64,000 nt of DNA. Source: Prochlorococcus sp. AG-409-N21 (GTDB lineage: Bacteria; Cyanobacteriota; Cyanobacteriia; PCC-6307; Cyanobiaceae). The notes under the pieces are model-generated. The model was not told where the DNA came from. It saw nothing but the letters and a program-made list of their open reading frames with translations, and did no database searches. Below are positions 7,843 to 33,320 of the stretch, in pieces. Each line of letters begins with the position of its first letter. The first letter of the stretch is position 1. The stretch spans positions 1 to 64,000 of the forward strand of contig QCKK01000003.1 of the NCBI GenBank assembly GCA_003215415.1, given 5' to 3'. Made by a program: the position numbers and the translations under genes.

Positions 7843-8094
7843 TTATTCGATTTGCTCAGGTTCTAGTTGAATGTGATTAAGGAGGGTTGTTACAAAAGCA
7901 AAAAGAAGAAAAGGAAGGCTTAAAACTAGTATCAATCCAACTCCTACTAATGCGAAAACTGGCCTTGAAGAGCCCATTAGCCCTAGGCCAGCAGCCAAGC
8001 TGACAAACACAACTGCCATCCAGGCGAGTACTTGTCCGTAGATGTCACCAAAAGTGAGATTGCAACGAACAGTAAAAGGTGTGCCGTTAATCAT
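7843..8094 (-). CDS. Conserved two-span small membrane protein
   Basis: This 83-residue protein has a polar N-terminus (MINGTPFTVRCNLTFGDI), two hydrophobic spans at about residues 20-42 and 46-70, and an acidic C-terminus. It looks like a cyanobacterial conserved hypothetical membrane protein, but I cannot name a family. It lies 24 bases upstream of msrA on the same strand and about 100 bases downstream of the ABC exporter. Confidence 0.72.
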   Translation of the reverse strand: MINGTPFTVRCNLTFGDIYGQVLAWMAVVFVSLAAGLGLMGSSRPVFALVGVGLILVLSLPFLLFAFVTTLLNHIQLEPEQIE

Positions 8095-8194
8095 GTTGAA
8101 ACTATCGCTTATTAAATACAGCTTGCTCCAATAATCACTTATGTCTTGAGATTGTGCTCAAGCCTTTACAGATAGCCAACGTTGGAAGCTTCAA

Positions 8195-9946
8195 TCACAG
8201 AATCGAATCCATCTTTTCAGTAGCTTTTTCTCTTTCCCACATGCGACGGTATGTGCCTTCTACTTGAATTAGTTGGTTGTGATGACCTTGTTGTATTAGT
8301 CGACCATTCTCTAAAACCAGTATTCGATCACAAGCCGCAGCAGCTGAAAGTTGATGACTAATTAAAATTATTGTTCTGCCTTTTGACCTTCTGATCTCTG
8401 AAATTATTTGAGATGCAGTTTCGTTATCTACGCTAGCTAGCGCGTCATCGAGAACAAGAATAGGAGAAGTTACTAAAATTGCTCTTCCTAGAGCAGTTCG
8501 CTGTCTTTGCCCTCCGCTGAGAGTTATTCCTCTTTCTCCAACTAATGTTTGGAATCCATCAGGAAAACCCCGAATATCTTCTATTAACCTTGCTTGAATA
8601 GCTGAATCTTCAACCCGTTTCAATGAAGCATTAGGTTCTCCATAACGAAGATTATTAGCTAGACTTGTTGTAAATAAATAGCCTTCTTGTGGCACTACAG
8701 CAACATTTTTACGCAAATCTTCTAGTAAAAGATTATTAACATCATATCCATCCAAAAATAATTGCTTGGCTGGTACTTCTACCATTCTTGCAATTGCACG
8801 TGCAAGAGTAGTTTTCCCACACCCAACAGGCCCTACAATAGCCACTAATTCTCCCGGATTAATAGTAAAATTAAGATTATCCAGAACATTATGTTTGGCA
8901 CCTTCATATTTAATTGTTAACTCCCGTGCTTCAACTCTTCCATTAATTGGCTCATTTAGGATAGTGGGGCTATTGGTATTGTGTATACGTGGAAGACGCT
9001 GTAGAAGTTCTTCTATCCTCTCAAGACTTACTTGCCCAACTTGAAATGTATTTAGTGTAAATCCAAGCAATGCAGTTGGAAAAACTAGTCGTTCAACATA
9101 AAGGATTAGAGCTACAAGTCCTCCTATGCTAAGAGCTCCTTTCTCAAGTTGACCACTACCTAAAGCAATAAGAAGAAGTAATGAGACCGAAGATATACCC
9201 TGAAGAAGAGGGAAAAGAGTGCTAGCAGTCCGTGCTACATCTATAGCCGAATCTCTATACTTTTTATTTCTAGCTTTAAAAGCATTTTGCTCGGAACTTT
9301 CTTGCCCATAAATTTTAATAGCACTAATTCCAGAAAGATCTTCTTGAATTAGTTCACTTAGCTTCGATAAGGCTTTTTGTTGATTCTTTCTCTGCCTTAC
9401 CATTCTTCCCCCAAACAAACTTACCGTTCCTAGCATTAATGGATATAAAGCTATTGCTGCTAGGCTTAGCCATGGATCTATGCCAAACATTGCTGGCAAT
9501 GTGAATCCATAAGCTAGCAATGTATTAGTTAAACTTAAGATTGTGAAACCAAGTAGTCTGCGAATATTTTCGACATCACTTGTAGCCCGGCTAATAACTT
9601 CCCCGCTACCAATTTCTTGAACCCAGCTAGGCTCTTGCGTGAGCATATGATCGAATAATCGCTGGCGAAGTTCGACTTCGACTTGTCTTCCAACACCAAA
9701 CACCAGCTGTCTGGATAAAAGTCTTGCTAGACCCATTATCGTTGCGAGAAGGATTATCCAAATAGCTTGAGTTAGTACTTCTGATATCTCAAAACTTTCT
9801 TGAAGATTATCTATTACTTCTCTAACTTCTAGAGGAATTATTACACTAAAGATGTTCACTACTACAAGCGATCCTGCTCCCATTAATACCGTTCTACGGT
9901 GAGGCCTTAGGTATCGTGCAATTAAATCAAGACGTAATGAGGCCAT
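8195..9946 (-). CDS. ABC exporter half-transporter (fused membrane and ATPase domains)
   Basis: This 583-residue protein has the MsbA/MdlB layout: six membrane helices in the first 300 residues, then a nucleotide-binding domain. Walker A appears as GPVGCGKTT, the Q loop as VVPQEG, the ABC signature as LSGGQRQR, and Walker B as ILVLDDALASVD. A single half-transporter gene implies a homodimer or a partner elsewhere. The substrate may be a lipid, peptide or drug-like molecule; sequence alone does not decide. It starts about 70 bases from the divergent DUF3288 gene. Confidence 0.9.
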   Translation of the reverse strand: MASLRLDLIARYLRPHRRTVLMGAGSLVVVNIFSVIIPLEVREVIDNLQESFEISEVLTQAIWIILLATIMGLARLLSRQLVFGVGRQVEVELRQRLFDHMLTQEPSWVQEIGSGEVISRATSDVENIRRLLGFTILSLTNTLLAYGFTLPAMFGIDPWLSLAAIALYPLMLGTVSLFGGRMVRQRKNQQKALSKLSELIQEDLSGISAIKIYGQESSEQNAFKARNKKYRDSAIDVARTASTLFPLLQGISSVSLLLLIALGSGQLEKGALSIGGLVALILYVERLVFPTALLGFTLNTFQVGQVSLERIEELLQRLPRIHNTNSPTILNEPINGRVEARELTIKYEGAKHNVLDNLNFTINPGELVAIVGPVGCGKTTLARAIARMVEVPAKQLFLDGYDVNNLLLEDLRKNVAVVPQEGYLFTTSLANNLRYGEPNASLKRVEDSAIQARLIEDIRGFPDGFQTLVGERGITLSGGQRQRTALGRAILVTSPILVLDDALASVDNETASQIISEIRRSKGRTIILISHQLSAAAACDRILVLENGRLIQQGHHNQLIQVEGTYRRMWEREKATEKMDSIL

Positions 9947-10015
9947 ACCTTTTGTATGAAGGAACGATGCTAAAGGACGAAGATTTGAAAAAATAGAGAA
10001 AACTTACTTCTGTTA

Positions 10016-10339
10016 ATGGATCATTCAGCTTCGGTTGGGAAACAGAATCACCCTCTCTATGCGAGTGATCGAGAACATGTTGACAGGCTGTTGACCAAGT
10101 CATCACCTGCAGAGGGTGATTTGGCCGATCTTGCCCGATTGTTGATTCGTTATGAGGGCTTCCCTGGAGCATTGGATCTTCAAGAGGACATGATTAAGAC
10201 TCTTAAACTTTGGGGCCTTTCTAGAGATGAGCTTAATCAGAAAACTCGTTTGATTTGGGAGAAAGGTTATAGGCCAGGAGCACAATCTGATGAATCAGTG
10301 GGATCTGGTTTTGATACTGCTGATGGTGGCGAGAAGTAA
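10016..10339 (+). CDS. DUF3288 family protein
   Basis: This 107-residue soluble protein matches the cyanobacterial DUF3288 pattern: QNHPLYASDREHVDRLL near the N-terminus, then LARLLIRYEGFPGA and a helical LWGLSRDELNQKTRLIWE. The C-terminal tail is Gly/Ser/Asp rich. No biochemical role is known to me. It is followed by a two-hairpin structure ending in a T-run just before trpD. Confidence 0.8.
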   Translation: MDHSASVGKQNHPLYASDREHVDRLLTKSSPAEGDLADLARLLIRYEGFPGALDLQEDMIKTLKLWGLSRDELNQKTRLIWEKGYRPGAQSDESVGSGFDTADGGEK

Positions 10340-10386
10340 TTCTCATATCAGATTAACTATTAGGTATCGCCAGTTGAGTTTTTTTG

Positions 10387-10413
10387 GGTGATAGTGGGAT
10401 AGTCCCCATCACC
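10387..10413 (+). other. Upstream hairpin of the DUF3288-trpD spacer
   Basis: GGTGAT at 10387-10392 pairs with ATCACC at 10408-10413, and the inner GGGA pairs with TCCC around a TAG loop. The pairing is interrupted by a small internal bulge. It stands immediately before a stronger terminator hairpin, so the two could be stacked parts of one terminator or alternate structures of a leader. Confidence 0.6.
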
Positions 10414-10416
10414 AGG

Positions 10417-10445
10417 CCCGGAGTGCAATGCACCCGGGTTTTTTT
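10417..10445 (+). terminator. Intrinsic terminator directly upstream of trpD
   Basis: CCCGG-A-GTG pairs with CACCCGGG (one bulged A, loop CAATG), followed by seven T residues at 10439-10445. It is a textbook rho-independent terminator for DUF3288. Unusually, the T-run ends only 7 bases before the trpD ATG, so a trpD transcript must either read through it or begin inside it. Confidence 0.85.
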
Positions 10446-10452
10446 CTGAAGA

Positions 10453-11484
10453 ATGTCATCAAATTCCAATTGGGCAAGCGTCCTTGATATGGTTTTGCAA
10501 GGTCAGGATCTGTCCGAGGAGCAAGCTAGTGATCTAATGAATTCCTGGCTTAATGAAGAACTCTCTCCTGTACAGACAGGAGCATTCTTAGCCGCTTTAA
10601 GAGCCAAAGGGGTTACAGGAGACGAATTAGCTGCCATGGCAAAAGTTTTGCAAGGTGCATGCTCTTTACCTTGTGCATTGCCTGATTTGTCCTTGGCAGA
10701 TACATGTGGAACTGGAGGAGATGGAGCCGATACTTTTAATATTTCTACTGCTGTTGCATTTACGGCCGCCAGTTGCGGGGTGCACGTAGCCAAGCATGGA
10801 AATAGAAGTGCTAGTGGCAAAGTTGGTTCTGCTGATGTTCTCGAAGGATTGGGATTCAATTTGAAGGCCCCTTTGAAAGTTGCTGTAGATGCAGTGCAAC
10901 AAACTGGCGTGACATTTCTTTTTGCACCTGCTTGGCACCAGTCTTTAGTTGGCTTGGCTCCGTTAAGAAAGAATCTTGGGGTTAGGACCGTTTTTAATTT
11001 ATTAGGTCCTTTAGTTAATCCTCTTAAACCTAAATATCAAGTGCTTGGAGTTGCAAATTTTGATTTGCTTGAGCCTATGGCCAATGCATTAAAAAAACTT
11101 GGTTTAAAAAGAGCAGTTGTTGTACATGGCGCAGGTGGATTGGATGAGGCTTCGTTGGCAGGACCTAATTTCTTAAAACTAATAGAAAATGGAAGTATCA
11201 AAGAGTCCGTTCTTGATCCAAAAAACTTGGGACTTCCCTCTGCTTCTTTGGATGATTTGAAAGGAGGAGACTTGGAAACCAATAAATCAATTCTTTCAGC
11301 TGTTCTCCAAGGAAAAGGAACAATTGCGCAGCAGAATGTAGTGGCTATTAATACAGCATTAGTTTTATGGGTTGCCAATCTTAATGATGATTTTAAATCT
11401 GGTCTTGAGGAGGCAAATAACGCCTTGTCAAGTGGTTTACCTTGGGAACGTTTTAATCAACTTCGCAATGAGTTTAATTCTTGA
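10453..11484 (+). CDS. trpD: Anthranilate phosphoribosyltransferase
   Basis: This 343-residue enzyme transfers phosphoribose from PRPP to anthranilate in tryptophan synthesis. The PRPP-binding motif appears as [35 protein letters not shown] and the [11 protein letters not shown] segment are also intact. The ATG at 10453 is the right start by family length, but it lies 7 bases after the T-run of a terminator and lacks a clear Shine-Dalgarno sequence. I found no tryptophan-rich leader peptide in the 110 bases upstream. carA follows after 33 bases. Confidence 0.96.
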
Positions 11485-27578: not shown

Positions 27579-28853
27579 TCAGACCTTGACCAGAGGTAGA
27601 TCTTCCATACGTGTTGTAGAGCATTTACTCATTAATTCTCGACGAAGTTTCCAGTTTGGGTTTGCTCCACAAATAGCCCATTGCAATGTTCCTTTCCCAT
27701 AGGACTTATTTATTTGATCGATAAGTTTCATGAGACATTCACGGCGCTTCTGCTCTTCACTATTGAAGACTTCAAATAAATTATGTTGTAGATAATTCGT
27801 ACTTTGTAACTGTTGCATTAATACTCCACACTTTATTAGTGGGCAGTTATATCGAAAGATTTGTTCTATTAGTGGTAGGGATGACTTTAGAAGAATTGAA
27901 GTGTCATTGCTTGGCAGGTTTAGTTTTGTTGTGGCAGATTTGCTGTAGAAAGATGGCTTAAACTTGCTCGTTCGTGTGAAGACTGTTATTGAACCTGCGA
28001 GTTGTCTCTGTTGACGTAATTTTCTGCTTGCATGTACTACATGTGTAGCTATTGCTTGGCGTAGTTCATTCAAGTTGCCAATTGGATTACTAAAACTCCT
28101 ACTAACACAGGTTTCTTTTTTCGGATTTGTAATGGATATGAGGGGGAAACAAGTATCCCCATGTAGTTCATGTAGTAGACGTACACCTACTATCCCGTAC
28201 TTTGCACGTAATTGATGACTTGGCATGTTGCGTAGTTGTTGAGCTGTTTTAATTCCTCGCAGCCGGCACCAACGTGCTAGTTGATGCCCTATTCCCCATA
28301 CCTCTTCTATCGCAATAGTTTCAAGCCAGGGATCTGGGTTGGTACAGGTAAGTAAATCAAATATGCCAGCTTGAGCTGAGATATGTTTTGCTAAATGGTT
28401 AGCAAGTTTTGCTTGTACTTTGTTTGCGCCAATGCCTACAGAAATTGATATTCCTATCTCTTGACGAACACGCTCTCTTAATCTGCGAGCCCAGGGTTTT
28501 AGATCGTAATAGGAAGGTAGCTCAATACGTGCAAATGCCTCATCGATTGAGTAAATCTCTATTTCATTGCATTCACTTTCTATTATCTTCATTAATCTCC
28601 GACTCATATCTCCATAGAGTTCGTAGTTTGAGCTTCTTACTGCTACTTCCAGTAGCTTTAGTTTATTACGTATTTTGAAATAGGGAGCACCCATTTTTAT
28701 TCCGAGTGCACGTGCTTCGACACTGCGAGCGATGATGCATCCATCATTATTAGAAAGAACTACTAGAGGTTTCTTTGTTAATGAGGGGTCAATGCTTTGT
28801 TCACAGCTGGCATAAAAGTTGTTGCCGTCTATAAGTGTTATGGCTTGGATCAT
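27579..28853 (-). CDS. umuC: Y-family translesion DNA polymerase V catalytic subunit
   Basis: This 424-residue protein is UmuC-like. LIDGNNFYASCEQ carries the first catalytic Asp, and YSIDEAFARI carries the catalytic Asp-Glu pair. VVLSNNDGCIIARS, GIGANKVQAKLAN and the helix-hairpin-helix EVWGIGHQLARW are present, with the little-finger and UmuC-specific C-terminus. ATG 28853 shares one base with the umuD stop (TGATG), so the two are translationally coupled. It makes an error-prone polymerase with UmuD' after DNA damage. Confidence 0.95.
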   Translation of the reverse strand: MIQAITLIDGNNFYASCEQSIDPSLTKKPLVVLSNNDGCIIARSVEARALGIKMGAPYFKIRNKLKLLEVAVRSSNYELYGDMSRRLMKIIESECNEIEIYSIDEAFARIELPSYYDLKPWARRLRERVRQEIGISISVGIGANKVQAKLANHLAKHISAQAGIFDLLTCTNPDPWLETIAIEEVWGIGHQLARWCRLRGIKTAQQLRNMPSHQLRAKYGIVGVRLLHELHGDTCFPLISITNPKKETCVSRSFSNPIGNLNELRQAIATHVVHASRKLRQQRQLAGSITVFTRTSKFKPSFYSKSATTKLNLPSNDTSILLKSSLPLIEQIFRYNCPLIKCGVLMQQLQSTNYLQHNLFEVFNSEEQKRRECLMKLIDQINKSYGKGTLQWAICGANPNWKLRRELMSKCSTTRMEDLPLVKV

Positions 28854-29296
28854 CAGACTTGACGACCAGTATTTATGTTGTGAATGGAATAGGTTGCTAC
28901 GCCCCATATTTCGATATTGTCGTAATAACAGAACTCAATTGGTGGATATTGAGGGTTTTCTGCCTCTAGTCGAAGTTCATTTTTATATCGCACAAGTCGT
29001 TTGAGGGTAAAAGCTCCATCGAGGATTGCAACTACGATTCGACCTGGTTTTGGCTCTAGACTACGGTCGACGATAAGAAGGTCTCCATTGTGAATCCCAG
29101 CATTGCTCATGGAGTCGCCGCTAATACGTAGAAGAAAAGTGCTTGTGGGATGGCGAATTAGTTGTTCATTGAGGTCGATGCCCGTATCCAGATAGTCTTC
29201 GGCTGGAGATGGGAACCCAGCTGATACAACCCCTTTCTCAAGAGGAAGGAAAGTTTGTTCTTTTCTTAAAGGGAGAAATGGTTGCGTGAGCTTCAC
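28853..29296 (-). CDS. umuD: UmuD-type S24 self-cleaving SOS mutagenesis protein
   Basis: This 147-residue protein has the Ala-Gly cleavage site in VVSAGFPSP (A26-G27), the catalytic Ser62 in SGDSMSN, and Lys99 in FTLKRL. The Ser-Lys spacing matches E. coli UmuD. RecA-stimulated cleavage gives UmuD', the partner of UmuC. There is no DNA-binding domain, so it is not LexA. The start codon is GTG (29294-29296) and abuts a perfect 28-bp inverted repeat holding a LexA-like box and the only Shine-Dalgarno-like sequence. Confidence 0.94.
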   Translation of the reverse strand: MKLTQPFLPLRKEQTFLPLEKGVVSAGFPSPAEDYLDTGIDLNEQLIRHPTSTFLLRISGDSMSNAGIHNGDLLIVDRSLEPKPGRIVVAILDGAFTLKRLVRYKNELRLEAENPQYPPIEFCYYDNIEIWGVATYSIHNINTGRQV

Positions 29297-30667: not shown

Positions 30668-32473
30668 ATGCCAGTAGTGGAACAGTTGCAAATTGTATAT
30701 GAACCATATGGAAAATTTAGAATTAATGGTTCAAATACAATAGCGAGATGGAGGTGTCAAACTTTTCATGAAAAGGAGCCAACTACTCTTGAATGGATTC
30801 AAAGATTAACAAAGCATTCTTGGTTGATTGATATTGGTGCAAATATTGGAATTTATACAATTCCAGCTTCATTATTTCATGTCGGTAGAGTTATAGCTTT
30901 AGAGCCAGAACCTAGAAATTATGCAGAGCTATTAGAGAATCTAGATATTAATTTAATAGATGATGAGAAGGTCATAGCACTTCCTTTGGCGATTTCTACA
31001 GAGTTTTCAGATCAGAGTACTAAGTTATTCTTATCAGAAGAGAAAGCAGGAAGTAGTTGTCATCAGCTAGGAAAGAATCAAGACCACATGCTTAAGAGAA
31101 TCCAATTCAACAGGAAGTCAAGATCAGTTTATTCGATATCCTTGGAGCAGTTGATTTGTGATTCTTGTGTTCCCAATGATGTTCCATTGCATATCAAGGT
31201 AGATGTAGATGGAATTGAAAATGACGTTTGCCAGAGTTTATTTAGCTCTTCTTTGATACATAGACTAAGCAGCATTCAGATAGAATTAAATAAAGATATC
31301 GAAAAACATTTTGAACTAATAAGTAAACTTGAGCTGGCTGGATTTTTCTACTCTAAAGTACAAGTGGAAAAGGCAACAAGGAAGCAAGGGCCTTATTCTG
31401 GTTTCGCTGAATACATATTCATTCCATCTTTTAGTCCTGAAATTTTTTCTATGCTTTCATTGCCTGATAACATAATAGAACAGCATCAAATTCTCTATAA
31501 TTATATTGGCAAAGGGAAGGAAAATATTGTTGAACCAGTGATTTCATTCAACAGTGAAGAGTCTGGAGCTATTACTTTTGCCGCTTTTTCATGTGTTCCT
31601 CCTGTGGGGATTGTTAAGTCTATATTTACCAACTCTCAATTACAAAGGATAGCCAGGTCTATTATTGATGTTGTGAGGACTAGCAGGCCTAACCTTAGCT
31701 TTAAAGTAGATAACAGTGAATATATTAGAGATGAACAACTAAGGGTTTCTGTTTCGTCAGATCAGCTTAAGTCTATAGATCCAGAGTATTGGGACTTCTT
31801 GCGCTCTTTGTTTTTCGACAAGTTTAATGTTGGCAAGATACTTTCAGTCTCTAGAAATATTAATTCACCAGATGCTAGAAATCGTTTCCCTCTTCAGAAG
31901 AATAAACTAGGAAGAATTACAGGGGCTAATGTAGTATGTAGGATAAGACATTTTGTTGATCTTCATGGATTTTATTTGACGAGGCATGTTGATAGCTCAG
32001 ATACTATAACTGCTCTAGTTATTCCTCTTTTGCCTTATTCAACTTCTACTTCTGTTATGTTTCCTACTGGTAGGCCCAGGTATAATTATTGTGCATTTAA
32101 GAATCGAGGTAATTTATTGCCTGGCAGTTTCTCTAATCAGCTGGAAGTTTATATGCAAGACAAGAATATTTATTGTGAGAGGATAAAAGGTGAGGAGTAT
32201 CACTATTCGCTAAAGAAAGTGCCATTAGAACCTGGTGAAGGTGCACTCATAAGTAACCCACTATCTATTTTATATGACTTAGTGGATACGCATAGAGATA
32301 TATATAATCATACGTCAGGCCATGGAGTATTCCCTCCAATGGTTGATCTTGTTAGACCAGTTTTGTTAGTTGATTATTTGCTTAAGTATGATGAAGAACT
32401 TGATTCCTTGTTCTCTAAATCATCGGAGGATCTTTCGATGATTTTCAAGCTTTCTGAAGTTTTTGACTTTTAG
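30668..32473 (+). CDS. FkbM-family methyltransferase fused to a 2OG-Fe(II) oxygenase-like domain
   Basis: The 601-residue protein has two parts. Residues about 1-255 are FkbM-like: SAM-binding LIDIGANIGIYT (53-64), IALEPEPRNYAEL, and HIKVDVDGIE. Residues about 290-600 carry a pattern typical of prolyl-hydroxylase-type 2-oxoglutarate/Fe(II) enzymes. H440-V-D442 forms the HxD pair, and H552 with R563 eleven residues later fits the distal His and 2OG-binding Arg. FkbM enzymes O-methylate sugars or small molecules; the substrate here is unknown. It precedes ksgA by four bases but is unlikely to share its job. Confidence 0.78.
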   Translation: MPVVEQLQIVYEPYGKFRINGSNTIARWRCQTFHEKEPTTLEWIQRLTKHSWLIDIGANIGIYTIPASLFHVGRVIALEPEPRNYAELLENLDINLIDDEKVIALPLAISTEFSDQSTKLFLSEEKAGSSCHQLGKNQDHMLKRIQFNRKSRSVYSISLEQLICDSCVPNDVPLHIKVDVDGIENDVCQSLFSSSLIHRLSSIQIELNKDIEKHFELISKLELAGFFYSKVQVEKATRKQGPYSGFAEYIFIPSFSPEIFSMLSLPDNIIEQHQILYNYIGKGKENIVEPVISFNSEESGAITFAAFSCVPPVGIVKSIFTNSQLQRIARSIIDVVRTSRPNLSFKVDNSEYIRDEQLRVSVSSDQLKSIDPEYWDFLRSLFFDKFNVGKILSVSRNINSPDARNRFPLQKNKLGRITGANVVCRIRHFVDLHGFYLTRHVDSSDTITALVIPLLPYSTSTSVMFPTGRPRYNYCAFKNRGNLLPGSFSNQLEVYMQDKNIYCERIKGEEYHYSLKKVPLEPGEGALISNPLSILYDLVDTHRDIYNHTSGHGVFPPMVDLVRPVLLVDYLLKYDEELDSLFSKSSEDLSMIFKLSEVFDF

Positions 32474-32477
32474 TCTC

Positions 32478-33320
32478 ATGGCCTCTTCAAGGCATACTGT
32501 TCGTAAGAGGTTCGGCCAGCACTGGCTAAAAGATTTTAAAATTTTAAATAAAATTATTGATGCGGCCGAGATTGAATCTAGTGATTGCATATTGGAAATT
32601 GGTCCAGGGCGCGGTGCACTTACGCAAAGATTACTTTCATCGGGACCCTCGTCTCTTCATTCAATAGAGATAGATAGAGACTTGATAATCGGTCTAAAAA
32701 AACGTTTTGGTGATGATCCTCGATTCTCTCTTTTGGAATCGGACATACTTTCTGTTCCTTTTTCGAATATAGATGGTAGAAAATATAATAAGGTAGTGGC
32801 AAATATTCCTTATAATATTACTAGCCCAATTCTGCAGAAACTCTTAGGAGATTTGAGTAGTCCTGTTGAAAATAATTACGAACTACTTGTCCTCTTAATT
32901 CAAAAAGAAGTTGCAGATCGTATTGTCGCAAAGCCAAAGCAAAATAGCTTTAGTGCATTGAGCGTTAGGATTCAATTATTAGCTGAATGTAAAAGTGTCT
33001 GTTTGGTTTCTCCTAACTGCTTCATCCCGCCTCCAAAGGTTCAATCTCAAGTGATTGCCTTGCGACCTTTCGATCAAAATAGACGTATAGATTCAAAACT
33101 GGCAAGTCGAGTTGAGGTTCTTCTTAGAACGGCATTCTTAGCAAGAAGAAAAATGCTGAGAAATTCATTTTCGACGTTTAGTTTTTTTGATGAATTAGAC
33201 GTGCTTGCTAAGTCAATAGGTATTAGTCTGAGTCAGAGGCCTCAGGAATTATCACCAGATCAATGGGTAGCCTTGGCTAATGACTTGAATCAATTAGATG
33301 ATCTTAGAAAATCTCAATGA
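32478..33320 (+). CDS. ksgA: 16S rRNA dimethyladenosine transferase
   Basis: This enzyme (280 residues) dimethylates the two adenosines in the 3' hairpin of 16S rRNA. The N-terminus has [11 protein letters not shown], then [13 protein letters not shown] (SAM site), and the catalytic [10 protein letters not shown]. Length is normal. ATG 32478 is the family start; the open frame extends five codons upstream. It overlaps ispE by four bases (ATGA), an arrangement common in cyanobacteria and other bacteria. Confidence 0.96.

Follow-up and report, generated by a model that had tools for sequence, protein, structure and literature searches.

Fused methyltransferase-oxygenases are already known, ALKBH8 and EvdMO1 being two examples. 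ALKBH8 methylates a tRNA wobble base before hydroxylating that same base, and in both enzymes methylation is thought to come first. The substrates of FkbM enzymes are mostly glycans and small molecules, and in picocyanobacteria the surface glycans are major phage receptors. EvdMO1 is, by the title of Starbird et al. (2018, cited in PMC10338323), a methyltransferase-oxidase fusion in the biosynthesis of everninomicin, an oligosaccharide antibiotic. Our literature search returned no paper on a fusion or pair of FkbM and 2OG-Fe(II) oxygenase, a weak sign of novelty, as most subscription journals were outside the search. Here we describe such a fusion from Prochlorococcus sp. AG-409-N21, found in a stretch of 64,000 nucleotides (contig QCKK01000003.1, positions 1 to 64,000) which is called the window throughout.

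The fusion gene is a one-gene islet

The gene for the FkbM methyltransferase - 2OG-Fe(II) oxygenase fusion was located at 30668..32473 on the plus strand of the window (ATG start, TAG stop included) and encodes 601 aa, as read from the ORF and its translation and supported by six homologous fusions. It was the sole copy in the source assembly (1.28 Mb, a 65%-complete genome), which by its gene content and its relatives is of the Prochlorococcus type of picocyanobacteria. The rlmH operon was present on one side and ksgA on the other; the latter (32478..33320, plus strand, identified by sequence and by synteny in relatives) begins 4 bases past the stop of the fusion gene. In at least eight relatives, namely those where both could be placed, the rlmH operon and ksgA adjoined each other with no fusion gene between them, and the G+C content of the fusion gene was about 0.35, lower than the 0.37-0.46 of most of its surroundings. 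Given its absence from the ksgA/rlmH junction of relatives and its lower G+C, the gene is a one-gene islet and was probably acquired. When flanking repeats or a tRNA were looked for as a mark of integration, none was convincing, the sole finds being short repeats of the kind expected by chance and a single tRNA-Pro some distance away. A UmuC- and UmuD/LexA-like gene pair was also seen upstream of rlmH (27579-29296, minus strand).

The N-terminal half belongs to the FkbM family

The FkbM-type SAM methyltransferase core covers residues 53-227 (30824..31348, plus strand) and contains LIDIGANIGIYT and IKVDVDGIE. The N-terminal half scored above the curated cut-offs of both family models, with an E value of 4e-7 and 30.7 bits for Pfam PF05050 (cut-off 22.7) and 1e-15 and 58.3 bits for NCBIfam TIGR01444 (cut-off 37.7). 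A first, sequence-only reading of this DNA had claimed clear FkbM SAM motifs here, and these were found in their places, SAM motif I (DxGANxG) as DIGANIG at residues 55-61 and KVDVDGIE at 177-184; both were kept in every aligned fusion but one (L014, below). By family membership, this half is classed as an FkbM methyltransferase. Residues 8-279 of the window protein were 52% identical to the stand-alone FkbM protein of Prochlorococcus AG-402-I20. The inter-domain linker, about residues 256-302 (31433..31573, plus strand), was modeled with low confidence, pLDDT falling below 50 at residues 283-288 of the full model and 28-39 of the model of the C-terminal half, and the stand-alone FkbM homologue stops just past residue 279.

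The C-terminal half is predicted to be a 2OG-Fe(II) oxygenase

Comparison of the C-terminal half with Pfam, PHROG and PDB sequence profiles gave no family match but only noise (UspB, DUF512 and similar), and PF13640 or any other Pfam 2OG family was matched by none of the 11 members of the C-domain set; its link to the 2OG superfamily is therefore one of structure and profile comparison only. The domain, about residues 303-597 (31574..32458, plus strand), was delimited by structure prediction, by Foldseek comparison with PDB and BFVD, and by four stand-alone copies (L010-L013). The AlphaFold2 model of this half was built on an 11-sequence alignment (pLDDT 78, pTM 0.79) and showed the HxD motif closing one strand, with H552 and R563 on two consecutive strands late in the domain. 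The predicted iron ligands H440-V-D442 (31985..31993) come after strand 437-440, the predicted distal iron ligand H552 (32321..32323) is on strand 551-554, and R563 (32354..32356), the predicted 2-oxoglutarate anchor, follows 11 residues past the distal histidine on the next strand, all three being encoded on the plus strand of the DNA.

When this model was searched against the PDB with Foldseek, the top matches were 2OG oxygenases, with E below 1e-3 for 41 chains; HIF prolyl hydroxylases came first (5v1b, 4bqy, E 6e-6), and ALKBH7, ALKBH5, PolD, prolyl 4-hydroxylase and Tpa1 came next. Against the viral models of BFVD, cyanophage 2OG oxygenases were matched. The PDB matches had moderate TM-scores (0.3-0.5), which is in line with a domain that has diverged and contains about 100 additional residues. 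H440, D442, H552 and R563 were invariant in 11/11 aligned sequences, the other ten of which are 21-36% identical to the window domain, and at such identity the HxD/H/R set is not a chance pattern; the invariant set also includes R425, R427, D431, T446, P453, T461, G523, N530, P556, P564 and D569. The sequence-only reading had named H440-x-D442, H552 and R563, and it had set beforehand that a predicted structure lacking the jelly-roll fold, or homologues lacking the HxD...H...R set, would speak against it. The residues stand at exactly those positions, the set is kept throughout the alignment, and the predicted half matches double-stranded beta-helix 2OG oxygenases, so that the reading survived. 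We thus assign the C-terminal half as a 2OG-Fe(II) oxygenase with a predicted double-stranded beta-helix fold.

The fusion is conserved but patchy in picocyanobacteria

Among 300 family genomes searched, homologues of the C-terminal half were found in five other genomes. The search for the fusion elsewhere, which the sequence-only reading had proposed as a check, returned six further fusions in five other picocyanobacterial genomes (L003, L005, L006, L007, L014 and L004, the last cut by a contig end), along with the four stand-alone oxygenase domains; Prochlorococcus AG-363-B04 and AG-409-J19 are among the fusion-bearing relatives. A profile search of 400 family genomes gave the fusion in six, plus a distant relative in genome G083, while the same kind of search in 386 genomes across the phylum gave it in the window's own genome only. 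The scan of genome contigs with the single C-half sequence gave no relative. Two further candidates (L008, L009) were rejected as homologues; they have stops inside and lie antisense to a conserved gene resembling a GH57-type glycosidase. The fusion is real, and it is conserved but patchy in its distribution.

All active-site residues were preserved in the window protein, as they were in four further full-length fusions (37-47% identity). In the diverged fusion L014 (genome G078, L014:945-2744), IKIGVGQIQ replaces IKVDVDGIE and the 2OG residues are intact; it is a candidate dead methyltransferase and, with its FkbM core degenerate and its oxygenase intact, shows that a fusion does not always need both activities. 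The tree of the C-domain separated fusions from stand-alone copies, but weakly. The stand-alone FkbM gene of AG-402-I20 adjoins a divergent 2OG-type gene (PF13640, E 3e-4, below the cut-off). No match was obtained when the window oxygenase was compared as a single sequence with the oxygenases of AG-402-I20 and of L034, and the comparison was positive only with an enriched profile.

Pairing of FkbM with the oxygenase predates the fusion and is more widespread

In viral contigs, members of the close FkbM subfamily were fused to an oxygenase, or had one next to them on the same strand, in 30/32 clusters (80% identity). Most FkbM proteins, in contrast, are without an oxygenase partner, and a 2OG oxygenase was adjacent at 0/75 other FkbM loci, a contrast that partly reflects the enrichment of the oxygenase profile with viral members. 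Counted over 80 viral contigs, the oxygenase was adjacent on the same strand in 47, fused in one ORF in 9 and neither in 24. The H, D, distal H and R were kept in 40/40, 40/40, 39/40 and 39/40 partner oxygenases, respectively, and the hhalign comparison of their profile with the window domain covered 143 columns including the active site with a probability of 91%, aligning the HxD segment, the distal HG and the Arg. By eye, the phage pairs were situated between TerL- and portal-like genes or beside tail-like proteins.

The tblastn search of phage records with the window protein gave one match, the FkbM gene of phage MW202512.1, and a 2OG oxygenase of genome G042, used as an independent query, matched the unannotated stretch right after this gene. 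No match was obtained from phage records by tblastn with the C-terminal half, nor from viral contigs searched with the window protein; viruses thus yielded distant relatives of the picocyanobacterial oxygenase but not its exact type. The two nearest non-cyanobacterial FkbM relatives in the genome collection came from a Rhabdochlamydiaceae MAG (L040) and an Alphaproteobacteria MAG (L041), and at both loci the two genes are on the same strand and overlap (2OG 9237-9956 and FkbM 9941-10744 in L040; FkbM 9857-10777 and 2OG 10777-11514 in L041). The pair of FkbM and 2OG oxygenase is thus both older than the fusion and more widely distributed. What had been called an unusual combination is real as a single-chain fusion but less isolated than was supposed, since the two genes recur side by side in phages and in some bacteria.

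Phage fusions of 896-951 aa were found in viral contigs L190, L192, L193, L198 and L200-L204, where an MptE-like domain (PF01973), a methyltransferase, FkbM and then the 2OG oxygenase are encoded in one ORF. At least some of these four-domain ORFs are beside tail-like genes, and their MptE-like domains are reminiscent of Maf flagellin glycosyltransferases. The FkbM tree put the fusions of picocyanobacteria, which have AG-402-I20 nested among them (99/95), and those of phages (92/91) into separate clades, and no bootstrap tree united all fusions, with the bootstrap short of full convergence, good but not final. The fusion therefore probably arose at least twice, or else repeated splitting would be needed.

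Sugar-related genes adjoin several homologues

The neighbours of the window copy are housekeeping genes, and no glycan genes were found near it in this 65%-complete genome. The earlier statement that the neighbours give no pathway clue thus holds for the window copy but not for the loci of its homologues, several of which have surface-sugar, glycosyltransferase or flagellin genes. As read by eye from the sequence, the G042 fusion adjoins genes for a UDP-sugar dehydrogenase, a WlbB-like acetyltransferase, an oxidoreductase and an aminotransferase. L014 adjoins a TylF-like methyltransferase gene, and the L041 pair adjoins GT2 and flagellin genes. In G037, G078 and G083, genes of a GT2-like family are found beside stand-alone or related 2OG domains, and in G027 another 2OG gene is beside a fragment of the same family; complete or as a fragment, this family (SILTVSFNSW...) was placed beside a 2OG-oxygenase gene in four picocyanobacterial genomes (L030:8079-8957, L033:11142-12056, L036:12073-12738 and L156:1498-1908).

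Some further genes were observed at these loci. In G042, two more putative oxygenase genes (L034:6667-7533 and 7948-8703) are beside the stand-alone oxygenase, and the former matches the Kdo hydroxylase family PF11004 below the cut-off. L030:8975-9409 encodes a 145-aa uncharacterised protein with no Pfam match, whose homologues of about 310 aa (L159:1039-1959, L164:1009-1956) seemingly contain two repeats and have glycosyltransferase-like neighbours in the two loci read. The 145-aa neighbour of L006 was rejected as a specific partner, its longer homologues being present in 36/400 family genomes, with glycosyltransferase-like neighbours in the two that were read.

Proposed function and alternatives

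We favor the view that the window protein is a two-activity glycan-tailoring enzyme, which we hold to be reasonably probable. In the data it is based on the two domain families, on active-site residues intact in both halves, and on a linkage of the two activities, adjacent or fused, that persists in picocyanobacteria, in phages and in two MAGs, one chlamydial and one alphaproteobacterial; a glycan substrate is suggested by some of the neighbouring genes in the homologues' loci, and the MptE-like domain and second methyltransferase of the phage fusions fit such a context. As this FkbM subfamily is nearly always accompanied by a 2OG oxygenase, the two activities probably share one substrate. The N-terminal domain would transfer a methyl group from SAM to a hydroxyl, and the C-terminal domain would oxidise a C-H bond with Fe(II), O2 and 2-oxoglutarate, hydroxylation being the simplest case. 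Both would act on one glycan or glycan-like substrate (surface polysaccharide, protein-linked sugar, or precursor), and the outcome would be a sugar both oxidised and O-methylated. More tentatively, it is possible that FkbM and 2OG oxygenase form a conserved glycan-tailoring module that has been spread largely by phages and became fused in these and in picocyanobacteria independently; it would produce a combined oxidised and O-methylated (possibly methylenedioxy-type) sugar and, in picocyanobacteria, may alter phage receptors.

An order of hydroxylation and then methylation is not to be assumed, because EvdMO1 and ALKBH8 set a precedent for methylation as the first step. A rather unlikely alternative is accordingly that FkbM makes an O-methyl group (or methyl ester) and the oxygenase then oxidises the site so methylated; the outcome might be a methylenedioxy bridge, a product both methylated and hydroxylated, or loss of the methyl group. 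EvdMO1 (6ec3) was the best PDB match of the full-length model (Foldseek, E 8e-7, 613 alignment columns), ALKBH8 follows such an order on its tRNA base, and the strict pairing of both domains fits sequential action on one site; however, the TM-score of the EvdMO1 match is low because its domains are placed differently, and there is no detectable sequence similarity. The title of Starbird et al. (2018) itself favors independent activity of the fused domains, and reaction order is not readable from the sequence here.

That the protein hydroxylates a peptide or protein side chain, with FkbM methylating this side chain or a sugar on it, appears quite improbable to us. The closest folds are indeed HIF prolyl hydroxylases and related protein hydroxylases, the predicted prolyl-hydroxylase-like fold would also be compatible with peptide substrates, and the flagellin and GT2 genes next to the L041 pair make a modified protein possible. 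This similarity, however, is superfamily-wide (TM about 0.3-0.5) and does not define the substrate, Foldseek scores are almost as good for oxygenases of antibiotic sugars and nucleic acids, and the known substrates of the FkbM family are mostly glycans and small molecules. A degenerate or accidental fusion with one half working only, as might be read from the loss of the DxDG motif in L014 and from FkbM (L039) and oxygenase (L010-L013) halves that each also stand alone, is very unlikely, since the intact active sites of the window protein and four full-length fusions argue that both halves are under selection, and even the stand-alone FkbM of AG-402-I20 adjoins another 2OG oxygenase gene.

With the two-activity glycan-tailoring enzyme as the favored reading, an odd single ORF becomes a testable rule, that a particular FkbM subfamily is almost always found together with a 2OG oxygenase. 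For picocyanobacteria, it offers a candidate enzyme for sugar modifications that annotation libraries would miss, because no family model recognises its oxygenase half; for phages, it suggests a multi-domain glyco-tailoring protein that is without description in the literature searched.

Comparison with known systems

In its predicted fold and HxD...H...R set, the window domain resembles HIF prolyl hydroxylases and 2OG-FeII_Oxy_3 (PF13640). It differs from the PF13640 type by about 100 extra residues and by its own motif, R-x-R...D...H-x-D-S/G..T...HG.(F/Y)PP...RP, and whereas the phage and bacterial partner oxygenases match PF13640 weakly, the window domain matches no Pfam model. The phage fusion proteins share with the window protein the direct succession of FkbM domain and 2OG oxygenase within a single ORF, but they have two extra N-terminal domains and a shorter oxygenase and belong to a separate clade of the FkbM tree. 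ALKBH8 likewise fuses a 2OG-Fe(II) oxygenase and a SAM methyltransferase that act on one substrate; its oxygenase, however, is N-terminal and of the AlkB type, its substrate is tRNA, it has an RNA-recognition motif, and the two architectures are not homologous. EvdMO1 differs in domain packing, organism and pathway, and the profile of the fusions did not find 6ec3 at E up to 10; it has a methyltransferase and a non-heme iron oxygenase in one polypeptide, as is predicted for the window protein, and Foldseek aligned 6ec3 over both halves of the full-length window model in one match, though with a TM of only 0.2 and an rmsd of 21.
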